NCBI GenBank assembly: GCA_026393895.1
Contig: JAPKZG010000069.1
Location: 1 to 52,200, forward strand
From: Candidatus Aminicenantota bacterium
Lineage (GTDB): Bacteria; Acidobacteriota; Aminicenantia; Aminicenantales; UBA4085
Direction of reading: 5' to 3'
Length of the DNA stretch: 52,200 bases
Shown here: positions 7,080 to 28,081 of the stretch, piece after piece
Position numbering within the stretch: position 1 is the first letter of the stretch
Layout: every line of letters starts with the position of its first letter
The notes under the pieces: generated by a model
Seen by the model: the letters and a program-made list of their open reading frames with translations, nothing else
Told to the model about the DNA's origin: nothing
Databases searched by the model: none
Program-made: the position numbers and the translations under genes

Positions 7080-7690
7080 AAGTCAATTACCCCGCGGCAA
7101 GCCGCGGGGCATCAAGAGCGCAGCTTCAAAGCCAGCTGCGCAGGCCCGTGCTCCAGTTCCCGGTGACTAACGATATATTTCCGTATCACCTCACTCGTCA
7201 TGCGGTCTCCGACCGTCCTGGCAAAATAACCGTCCTCCCATAGCTCCCCGCCCCAAAATCTCTTCTTCAGCCCCGGGAACTCGCGAAACAACCCCCGCCC
7301 ACTCAGACTCTTTATGATGCGAACCGCCTCCCCAATCGATCGCGATGGCGAGAACGATACCAGCAGATGAATGTGATCCTCTATCAGTTCCATCTCTTGA
7401 ATCTCGATATCGTAAGCTTCGCAGATCTCCCCGATCATCTGTTTCGCTCGTTCCCGAACGTCCTCCCGCTCAAAAACCTTCTTTCGATACTTGGGGCACC
7501 AGACCAGATGGTAGGACGTGTCGTAGACCGAATGACTCGTTCGTCGGAGCGTCACCCCTGTAATTTATCACACCGCCGAGCACGGGCCTAGCTGGATAAG
7601 GGGAACTTTCCGGTCCCCCTTATAACCCCCTCGGAGCGGCAGGCATTCTTCCCCGCGGCAAGCCGCGGGGCATTCTGCAAAGGGTTTCGT
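7080..7690 (-). mobile_element. minimal IS200/IS605-type insertion sequence
   Basis: A single Y1 transposase gene is bracketed by two copies of the same 23-nt subterminal hairpin, ATGCCCCGCGGCTTG plus GCCGCGGGG on the minus strand. The right-end hairpin is at 7090-7109, one base after the transposase stop, and the left-end hairpin is at 7651-7670. Single-gene elements with hairpin ends and no inverted terminal repeats are typical of IS200. The exact cleavage points cannot be read without an empty site, so the outer limits are approximate. It separates the nonulosonate operon from the Wzz gene. Confidence 0.8.
7112..7555 (-). CDS. tnpA: IS200/IS605 family transposase TnpA (Y1, HUH)
   Basis: A 147-residue Y1 transposase of normal length and apparently intact. 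The HUH metal-binding motif is H61-I-H63 in EDHIHLLVSF, and the catalytic tyrosine is Y127 in VIRKYIVSHRE, the spacing expected for IS608-like enzymes. It would cut and rejoin single-stranded DNA at the element's hairpin ends. There is no accompanying tnpB. Its stop codon abuts the right-end hairpin. Confidence 0.92.
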   Translation of the reverse strand: MTLRRTSHSVYDTSYHLVWCPKYRKKVFEREDVRERAKQMIGEICEAYDIEIQEMELIEDHIHLLVSFSPSRSIGEAVRIIKSLSGRGLFREFPGLKKRFWGGELWEDGYFARTVGDRMTSEVIRKYIVSHRELEHGPAQLALKLRS

Positions 7691-25659: not shown

Positions 25660-25685
25660 TAAAGCGTTTGCGATTCGGAATTAGT

Positions 25686-25885
25686 TCGGGGACAGGTTAC
25701 TCATTTCCCGAATTCCAAAATCACACGTCCGGTAAGTCATTCATAAAACAGTATTTGACAATTTGGGGTTTGAGTAACCTGTCCCCGATTTTTTCCCGAA
25801 TTTCGGAATTTGCCGAATTTTCCCATCACCAACACAAATTTGTCCGATTCGGGATATGTGGAATTTAAGGAATGCGTCCCCGAAT
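25686..25885. repeat. palindromic repeats, copies F (composite)
   Basis: A full unit (TTCGGGGACAGGTTACTCAT at the left, GAGTAACCTGTCCCCGA at the right, about 25686-25790) is followed by a second, degenerate segment (GAATTTCGGAATTTGCCGAA... to GCGTCCCCGAATGAG, about 25796-25885). Together they fill the gap between the YihY gene and lpxD. Confidence 0.82.
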
Positions 25886-25917: not shown

Positions 25918-26982
25918 ATGAAAATCACCGTTCGGCAACTTGCGGATCGCCTAGGATTGGACTTTGAAGGAGACGGCTCGGTCGAAATCACGGGCGTATC
26001 GAGTCTGGACAAGGCCGAGCCGGGGGATCTCGTTTTCTACGCCCAAGCCAAATGGCGCCCTCAACTCGAAGGCACGCGCGCGGCGGCCGGAATACTTCCG
26101 GTCGACGAATCTCGGGACCGGGTCCCGCTGCGGGCGGTTCTTCGGGCGGAAAACCCGCATCTGGCGTTCATCCGGGCGATCGACCTGATCGTTCCCGCCC
26201 GCCGTCCCGCGCCCGGCATCCATCCAACCGCCTGCGTCTCTCCGACCGCGCGCTTGGCCGGGGACGTCTCGGTCGGAGCGATGTCTTTCATAGGCGACGG
26301 GGCGGACATCGGGCCGGGCACCGTCATCTTCCCGCTCGTTTCCATCTACGAGGGCGTCCGCGTCGGCGCGGCCTGCCGCCTTCACTCGGGCGTCTCGCTC
26401 CGCGAGGACGTCCGCCTCGGCGACCGCGTCATCCTGCATAACGGCGTCCAGATCGGCGGCGACGGCTTTGGGTACATCAAAGGCCCCGACGGGACCCACC
26501 TCAAAATCCCCCAGGTCGGGACGGTCGTGATCGAAGACGATGTCGAAATCGGAGCCAATTCGACGGTGGACCGGGCGGCGCTCGGAACCACCGTCATCGG
26601 CCGCGGGACGAAAATCGACAACCTCGTTACGGTCGCCCACAACGTCGAGGTCGGCGAGAACGCGATTCTCGTCGCCCAGGTCGGGATCGGAGGAAGCTCG
26701 AAGATCGGGCGCGGCGCGATTCTCAGCGGGCAGGTCGGAATTCCCGATCATATCGAAGTCGGTGACGGGGTCATCGTCGCCGCCAAAACCGGCGTCACAA
26801 AGAACATCCCGGCCGGTCAAATGGTCGCCGGAATCCCCCATCTCGACATCCGCGACTGGCGCAAGCTCTGGGCCGTCGCCCCCCAGCTCTACGACATCGT
26901 CAAGGATTTCAAAAAAGTGAAAGTTCGGGTCGCCGAGCTTGAGGCCGAACTCGCCCACCTACGGGCCGATTCAACCCGCTGA
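25918..26982 (+). CDS. lpxD: UDP-3-O-acylglucosamine N-acyltransferase LpxD
   Basis: A 354-residue lipid A enzyme that adds the N-linked acyl chain to UDP-3-O-acyl-glucosamine. The N-terminal domain (MKITVRQLADRLGLDFEGDG to about 95) is followed by the beta-helix and the catalytic His in VTVAHNVEVGE. The C-terminal helix KVKVRVAELEAEL is the part that is duplicated downstream of the RAYT gene. A TATAAT at 25895-25900 and a GGGAGG box precede the ATG. The last 11 codons appear altered relative to the downstream copy, probably through the RAYT-linked rearrangement. Confidence 0.93.
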   Translation: MKITVRQLADRLGLDFEGDGSVEITGVSSLDKAEPGDLVFYAQAKWRPQLEGTRAAAGILPVDESRDRVPLRAVLRAENPHLAFIRAIDLIVPARRPAPGIHPTACVSPTARLAGDVSVGAMSFIGDGADIGPGTVIFPLVSIYEGVRVGAACRLHSGVSLREDVRLGDRVILHNGVQIGGDGFGYIKGPDGTHLKIPQVGTVVIEDDVEIGANSTVDRAALGTTVIGRGTKIDNLVTVAHNVEVGENAILVAQVGIGGSSKIGRGAILSGQVGIPDHIEVGDGVIVAAKTGVTKNIPAGQMVAGIPHLDIRDWRKLWAVAPQLYDIVKDFKKVKVRVAELEAELAHLRADSTR

Positions 26983-26992
26983 TTGATTCGGG

Positions 26993-27103
26993 TAATTCGG
27001 GGACAGATTACTCATTTCCCGAATTATTATTTGCTGTAATATGAATCAGTTAGAGAGCATGAGTAATCTGAATTCGGGGGTTGAGTAATCTTTCCCCGAA
27101 TTT
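26993..27103. repeat. long palindromic repeat, copy G (left of RAYT)
   Basis: AATTCGGGGACAGATTACTC...CCCGAATT on the left and GAGTAATCTGAATTCGGGG plus GAGTAATCTTTCCCCGAATT on the right. It begins 10 nt after the lpxD stop and ends about 80 nt before the RAYT start. Confidence 0.85.
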
Positions 27104-27185
27104 TCACTCTCTCTTAACTCGCCCGAATTCCATCTGAGAAAACCGAAGGCGTCCCCGCGTCTTTAGAATATCAGGATTAAATCAT

Positions 27186-27920
27186 ATGCCTCGAATAGCG
27201 CGTGTCGTCGTTCCAAATTGTCCTCACCACATCACAAACCGGGGAAACCGCCGCCAGGCTATTTTTTTCGGCGATGAGGACAAAAAGCTCTATCTCCGCC
27301 TTCTCTTGCGATATGGGGATCTTTTCGGACTCAAGTTCTGGGCGTATTGCTTGATGCACAATCATGTTCATTTAATCGCGGTTCCCCTGAAGTCGGACAG
27401 CATGAACCTGACCATAAGGGAGGCCCACAAGAAATACACGAGTCAGGTCAATCTCCAGATGAATTGGCGGGGTTCTCTCTGGCAGGGGCGATATTACTCA
27501 TTTCCTCTGGAAGACATTCATCTCTATCGGGCGCTTCGCTACGTAGAAAATAATCCGGTTCGGGCCGGAATCGTAAAAATCGCCGAGAACTATCCTTGGT
27601 CAAGCGCATCCTCACACGTTCTCGGAAAACCGGACGACATGCTCTCTCCAGACGGACTCGGGATCCGCGGGAAGGCCTGGCGGGCCTATCTTCGCGAACA
27701 AGAGGAGGAAGAGGAAATCAAGGATATCCGCAATCACATCATGACCGGCCGGCCGCTGGGTGGAGAGGATTTCATCAATCAGTTGGAAAATACCCTGGGA
27801 CGGGAGGTCCGGCCGAAAAAACCGGGACGTAAGAAACATAATGGATCCGAAGACGATTCGGACAACTCCGGAATAGTTCAAGCAATTCGGGGACAGATCA
27901 CTCAATCCCCGAATTCATAA
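27186..27920 (+). CDS. REP-associated tyrosine transposase (RAYT)
   Basis: A 244-residue Y1/HUH single-strand nuclease of the RAYT (TnpA-REP) class. Motifs: ITNRGNRRQAIFF, the HUH pair H60-V-H62 in MHNHVHLIAVP, SLWQGRYYS and Y119 in ALRYVENNPVRAG, the catalytic tyrosine. RAYTs process and disseminate REP-type palindromes rather than moving themselves. Here the gene is bracketed by two copies of the window's repeat, and its last 11 residues (IRGQITQSPNS) are encoded by the downstream copy. The C-terminus before that is basic and Lys-rich. No strong ribosome binding site is seen. Confidence 0.92.
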   Translation: MPRIARVVVPNCPHHITNRGNRRQAIFFGDEDKKLYLRLLLRYGDLFGLKFWAYCLMHNHVHLIAVPLKSDSMNLTIREAHKKYTSQVNLQMNWRGSLWQGRYYSFPLEDIHLYRALRYVENNPVRAGIVKIAENYPWSSASSHVLGKPDDMLSPDGLGIRGKAWRAYLREQEEEEEIKDIRNHIMTGRPLGGEDFINQLENTLGREVRPKKPGRKKHNGSEDDSDNSGIVQAIRGQITQSPNS

Positions 27921-28016
27921 GACATACCTAGCGAACTTATTCATATAAAAGCAATGAATAATTAAGTAAACGAGTGATTTGGGAATTCGGGAAATGGGTA
28001 ACCTGTCCCCGAATTA
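27883..28016. repeat. long palindromic repeat, copy H (right of RAYT)
   Basis: AATTCGGGGACAGATCACTC...CCCCGAATT lies inside the RAYT 3' end; the opposing arm GAATTCGGGAAATGGGTAAC plus CTGTCCCCGAATT ends two bases before the duplicated lpxD tail. Confidence 0.85.
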
Positions 28017-28018
28017 TT

Positions 28019-28081
28019 AAGGATTTCAAAAAACTGAAAGTCCGGGTCGCCGAGCTTGAGGCCACGCTCAAGGATAAATAG
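28019..28081 (+). pseudogene. displaced duplicate of the lpxD 3' end
   Basis: Positions 28019-28063 match 26902-26946 inside lpxD with only two mismatches over 45 nt, and the frame continues to a TAG at 28079-28081, encoding a tail reading KDFKKLKVRVAELEATLKDK. This looks like the original end of lpxD, now separated from the gene by the RAYT module. It overlaps the 3' end of the convergent trxB by 14 nt, which is a natural place for the ancestral lpxD stop. Confidence 0.8.

Follow-up and report, generated by a model that had tools for sequence, protein, structure and literature searches.

The RAYT gene behind lpxD in this genome of Candidatus Aminicenantes belongs to an ordinary REPtron of an under-described phylum, which carries an unusual recombination scar. 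The scar, a duplicated end of lpxD on the far side of the RAYT gene, is most likely a one-off recombination product. The window analyzed here is the whole of a 52.2-kb contig from a MAG of 2.96 Mb in 106 contigs (G000), and it was compared with its relatives (G001, G002, G003 and others) in a set of 59 genomes.

The duplicated lpxD tail and the empty site

The lpxD gene (25918..26982, plus strand; 354 aa; TIGR01853, 361 bits) ends in an unusually long C-terminal tail, ...AELEAELAHLRADSTR followed by the stop. Codons of the C-terminal coiled coil of LpxD make up the upstream copy of a 45-nt direct repeat (26902..26946, plus strand). This copy is followed by a 46-nt stretch with the final lpxD codons and the stop (26947..26992, plus strand) and then by the RAYT unit, which consists of a 5' REPIN of 109 bp (26994..27102), the gene for a TnpA-REP-like Y1 HUH protein of 244 aa (27186..27920, plus strand), and a 3' REPIN of 132 bp (27884..28015). 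The downstream copy of the repeat, a relic of the ancestral lpxD 3' end, lies beyond the RAYT gene (28019..28063, plus strand) at a spacing of 1117 from the first. Its frame is that of lpxD, and KDFKKLKVRVAELEATLKDK is read up to the TAG at 28081, with the remaining ancestral tail (TLKDK and the stop) at 28064..28081 on the plus strand. The 3' end of trxB (thioredoxin reductase, 29027-28068, minus strand; TIGR01292, 359 bits), which is convergent with lpxD, falls inside this relic tail, and the overlap is 14 nt. A solo REPIN of two inverted REPs (25683..25791, 109 bp) lies between yihY and lpxD; over 43 nt, and in inverted orientation, it matches the outer arm of the terminal REPIN of the RAYT unit at 93% identity.

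The two copies are identical at 43 of 45 positions (96%). This match, and the in-frame reading of the second copy to a stop that overlaps trxB, had been pointed out in the preliminary description and are confirmed here. The description had also placed a unit of repeat, RAYT gene and repeat between the copies. A REPIN-RAYT-REPIN unit was indeed found there, but the left copy stops 46 nt short of its REPIN. In a BLAST search of the whole genome, the stretch 26902-26992 matches just two places, the second copy giving E=2e-14 and the next best match E=0.125, and the repeat is therefore neither a chance similarity nor a fragment of an lpxD paralogue. The possibility that the second copy is an independent paralogue fragment is ruled out by the same search, in which no further copy was present in the genome.

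The best relative, G001, which belongs to the same genus, has no RAYT. Its lpxD is followed by trxB, with the two stop codons about 18 nt apart, and the C-terminus of its LpxD (...VKEFKKMKARVAELETALKK, in a longer form ...KEFKKMKARVAELETALKK, with AELETALKK as the last residues before the stop) resembles the displaced tail. When the window is collapsed at the repeat, LpxD becomes 348 aa long, compared with 347 aa in G001, and the tails of the other relatives are similarly short. At both mismatches between the copies, the downstream copy has the base of most relatives, whereas the base of the upstream copy looks derived. The empty site in G001, the two protein lengths and the majority bases in the downstream copy place the ancestral end of lpxD at or near 28081, as had been proposed earlier. 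Judged from these comparisons, an insertion at the 3' end of the ancestral lpxD is supported. The empty site itself, with an lpxD tail like the displaced copy and then trxB, had been predicted for the junctions of related genomes and was found in G001, and RAYT-free relatives with the lpxD end of the window were not encountered. None of the 80 loci listed from the named genome collection belongs to a further species of this genus.

The RAYT gene and its REPINs

The unit between the copies is a REPtron, in which a RAYT gene is maintained by vertical descent together with its cognate REPINs; units of this kind do not hop as a whole. The RAYT has a Y1_Tnp domain (PF01797, 42.6 bits; cut-off 23), and the HUH motif MHNHVHLI (HNHVHL in the alignment) and the tyrosine motif YVENNPVRAG can be recognized in the predicted protein. 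The best NCBIfam model for it is NF047646 (REP_Tyr_transpos equivalog) with 59.9 bits, which is below the cut-off of 80. The RAYT of G002 (71.5) and a second RAYT of G000 on contig C4 (55.4) score under this cut-off as well. The model may under-cover this phylum, and membership is claimed at the RAYT-like/REPtron level, without NF047646 equivalog status.

Inverted REPs stand on both sides of the RAYT gene, and this REP type is dispersed in the genome, with 28 REP/REPIN elements in the sampled regions, these being the loci returned by a 13-nt REP core pattern. The cognate REP pattern has 27 matches in G000 and 32 in G002, and 0 in G001, G003, G004 and G005. The REP reads AATTCGGGGACAGRTTACTCATTTCCCGAATT, and the GT[AG]G tetranucleotide is absent at its foot. 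As REPtron classes without GT[AG]G have been reported (PMC6006769), this excludes the canonical subclasses but not the family. The second RAYT of G000 (C4:14887-15546; loci L002/L190) is 51% identical to that of the window and has a distinct REP type, GGGGACACAATACCAATTACCC, so that there is one RAYT per REP type.

The locus thus resembles the described REPtron/RAYT (TnpA-REP) systems with REPINs (PMC2817692, PMC3116915, PMC6006769): a single Y1 HUH gene stands between inverted REPs of a type that is scattered over the genome, each RAYT (two here) has its own REP type, the gene is fast-evolving, and RAYT loci are positionally stable between genomes. It differs from these systems in the missing canonical foot, in the 45-nt duplicated gene tail, and in a RAYT ORF that ends within a REPIN. 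The final RAYT codons and the stop are supplied by the 3' REPIN (window 27880-27920; AIRGQITQSPNS and the stop); the G002 counterpart ends in LNSGVE before its stop (L035). With IS200/IS605 elements the window RAYT shares the Y1_Tnp domain and the HUH and tyrosine motifs. The window unit, unlike those elements, is not multi-copy, is flanked by REPINs rather than by IS ends, and has a long direct repeat, which IS200/IS605 do not make (PMC2817692).

Two further features were observed. An IS200-like element occupies positions ~7096-7655 of the window; its gene (7169-7537, minus strand) encodes a 147-aa Y1_Tnp protein (137.8 bits), CCCCGCGGCAAGCCGCGGGG hairpins flank it, and it differs from the RAYT. 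A CTGAGAAAA...CGTCTNTA/CGTCCCTAT-like string precedes the RAYT start codon in G000 (27130-27185) and in G002 (L035), and it precedes vapB in G003 (L036). Possibly, this shared string is a promoter.

RAYT neighborhoods and the lpxD/trxB junction in relatives

Across the order, the genes flanking RAYTs are conserved between related genomes in seven sets, namely G005/G004, G014/G020, G052/G050/G044, G056/G038/G036, G040/G026/G032, G034/G016 and G007/G010. The contig of G002 has the order trxA-REPIN-trxB-REPIN-lpxD-RAYT-REPIN-end of yihY, and its RAYT is directly 3' of lpxD without a REPIN between them. This RAYT and that of the window (G000_C105) form a sister pair with 100% support, and it is the closest RAYT among the 59 genomes. 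The two RAYTs are 63.5% identical in amino acid sequence, compared with 76-83% for LpxD and TrxB of the same two genomes. Because RAYTs evolve faster than their neighbor genes (PMC2817692), these values fit orthology.

The lpxD-RAYT block of G002 (L035, G002:C352) is inverted with respect to trxB and yihY, with each breakpoint inside one of a pair of inverted REPINs (41 nt, 93%). C135, the contig with yihY in that genome (end of L272), shares 87 nt with C352 at the edge of the inverted block, which may point to an inversion polymorphism or to a branch in the assembly.

Other insertions are seen at the same place. In G003, a vapB-like/vapC (PIN) pair directly follows the lpxD stop (L036 position 2006; L036/L193), where the RAYT stands in G000 and G002; a toxin-antitoxin operon is reported to have replaced the REPtron locus in E. 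coli strains (PMC6006769). Other palindromic repeats are present downstream of lpxD in several genera, as seen in G010 (L043, GGGGTCAGGTCTAGAG...), G007 (L046, GGGGTCAGGTCTTAAG...) and G004 (L040, AAAAAGGGGACACTGAACCCC...). The lpxD/trxB junction is a recurrent insertion point between convergent genes.

The permissiveness of the junction, as seen from the palindromic repeats and the vapBC pair, would agree with a single illegitimate insertion or template switch, by which the RAYT unit, bringing 46 nt of its own left flank, entered an intact lpxD of this lineage and 45 nt of the target were re-copied. The adjacency in G002 would then have arisen separately, the junction being prone to insertions. 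This requires, however, that the closest RAYT of the 59 genomes landed twice behind lpxD by chance and that the 46 nt happen to be in frame and to resemble an LpxD tail. Such a course of events has a modest probability.

The preliminary description had pictured a recent insertion of the RAYT module together with a long duplication. The position of the sister RAYT of G002, also behind lpxD, the kept neighbors, and the lack of comparable duplications all speak against a recently mobile module for which such a duplication would be characteristic. Duplication of flanks was scored as the direct similarity between left and right flanks, the 99th percentile of mismatched flank pairs being 11.5. None of the 28 REP/REPIN elements in G000 scores above 11, whereas the RAYT unit scores 39. 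The other scorable RAYT loci, those with enough flank on both sides, have no clear long non-REP direct repeat, the strong repeats being REPs; a weaker and possibly REP-associated exception is the RAYT locus of G034 (49 nt, 80%). A long target duplication as a general trait of this REP/RAYT family is ruled out by the 28 elements and the scorable RAYT loci, and the duplication is a singular event.

The terminal inverted repeats, the flanking direct repeat, and the site that is empty in G001 might all be explained by transposition of the whole unit, catalyzed by the RAYT and accompanied by a 45-bp target-site duplication. The repeats, however, do not abut both ends of the element as such a duplication should: the right copy is 2-3 nt from its REPIN, and 46 nt of non-REP sequence separate the left one from its own. 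RAYTs moreover keep their genomic place, and no comparable clear duplication accompanies the REPINs and single REPs or the other RAYT loci scored above. A larger target duplication is not expected of Y1 HUH enzymes, and IS200/IS605 members make none; mobility of the IS kind is not apparent in RAYTs (PMC2817692). REPtrons are mostly transmitted vertically, without transposition as a unit (PMC6006769). Transposition by the RAYT is thus very improbable. That the RAYT/REPIN unit moved whole and recently, making the 45-bp target duplication by means of a non-domesticated RAYT with a chemistry unlike that of other Y1 HUH enzymes, is likewise very improbable. The earlier interpretation is retained for the insertion at the ancestral lpxD 3' end and given up for the recently mobile module.

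Origin of the scar and its meaning

Past the 45 nt, the upstream copy goes on as GAACTCGCCCACCTA... without a change of frame and encodes ELAHLRADSTR before the stop. The stretch 26947-26992 has no other occurrence in this genome by BLAST. Compared with the lpxD tail of G003, its first 15 nt are identical at 12 positions, a level that is reached by 5 of 104,370 15-mers of the window. This match suggests that the two tails may be genuine LpxD tails of two alleles, and not one tail copied by a transposase.

Two alleles on a MAG contig might also be the result of an assembly chimera of two metagenome strains. The join at 28016-28019, however, holds no long word common to lpxD that could mislead an assembler, and the contig is 52 kb long with flanks syntenic with those of relatives. 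A chimera is possible though unlikely, and the probability given to it is small.

In a species tree built from the concatenated rpoB, secA, trxB, trxA and lpxD proteins, G000 and G001 are favored as sisters (UFBoot 85), and the alternatives are not rejected (AU 0.14 and 0.13); the pairing is thus weakly indicated by the protein sequences. The gyrA gene is absent in G001 and partial in G002. G000 has a second, divergent secA homologue (G000:C1:26183-28204) besides the copy on C94. The REP pattern is found in G000 and G002 and is missing in G001, while G000 and G001 are the favored sisters, which makes a secondary arrival or exchange in G000 plausible.

The same distribution, with lpxD-RAYT adjacency common to G000 and G002 and a favored sister of G000 without RAYT and REPs, could be the outcome of an old insertion that has been maintained. 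In that case, the ancestor shared by G000, G001 and G002 would already have had the unit and the second tail; G001 would have lost the unit through recombination between the tails, an easy deletion between direct repeats, and G002 would have lost the relic. The copies, however, differ from each other at 2/45 positions and from G001 at 6-7/45, so that gene conversion in G000 has to be assumed, and the total lack of the REP pattern in G001 requires a further loss. This history, too, has a modest probability.

The origin that we prefer, at somewhat short of an even chance, is the entry of a segment with an lpxD end and the REPtron into an lpxD/trxB junction that had no RAYT, through recombination or a template switch; the source of the segment, the direction of its transfer and the mechanism are what we infer. 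The lineage of the window, or a close relative of it, would keep the REPtron behind lpxD. The incoming segment would consist of the end of a RAYT-bearing lpxD (from 26947), REPIN, RAYT and REPIN, and the recipient would be a RAYT-free junction like that of G001. The left join would lie in matching lpxD tail sequence (GAGCTTGAGGCC), and the right join would be illegitimate, connecting the outer REPIN edge to the native lpxD tail at a point from which 63 nt remain up to and including the stop codon. The outcome would be a working lpxD with a regenerated tail and a relic tail still holding the 3' end of trxB. Selection would favor such a scar because lpxD and trxB overlap, and both frames stay whole only if the insertion duplicates the overlap.

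In homology-facilitated illegitimate recombination at DNA uptake, one end is joined by homology and the other illegitimately, and recipient sequence may become duplicated. The scar of the window, with its two presumed joins, one homologous and one illegitimate, would resemble the product of this process. One point against the joining of a segment is that window-specific codons are common to both tails over their first 45 nt, which calls for a very near relative of this species as the donor or for a switch placed exactly at the end of the repeat. Further points against it are that the upstream tail resembles that of G003 over just 15 nt and that the alternative trees are not rejected. A mosaic lpxD with a donor-derived 3' half was considered, and the sliding identity to G001, G002 and G003 gave no sign of it.

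RAYTs are regarded as genes that are inherited without a change of place. Close relatives show this locus in three states: empty, filled in inverted orientation, and filled with a scar. These states suggest that ordinary recombination can hand on a REPtron together with an adjoining gene end and that REPINs around a gene can flip that gene. The locus is useful for RAYT biology and for the question of how RAYTs reach new places; the view of RAYTs as immobile is not overturned.
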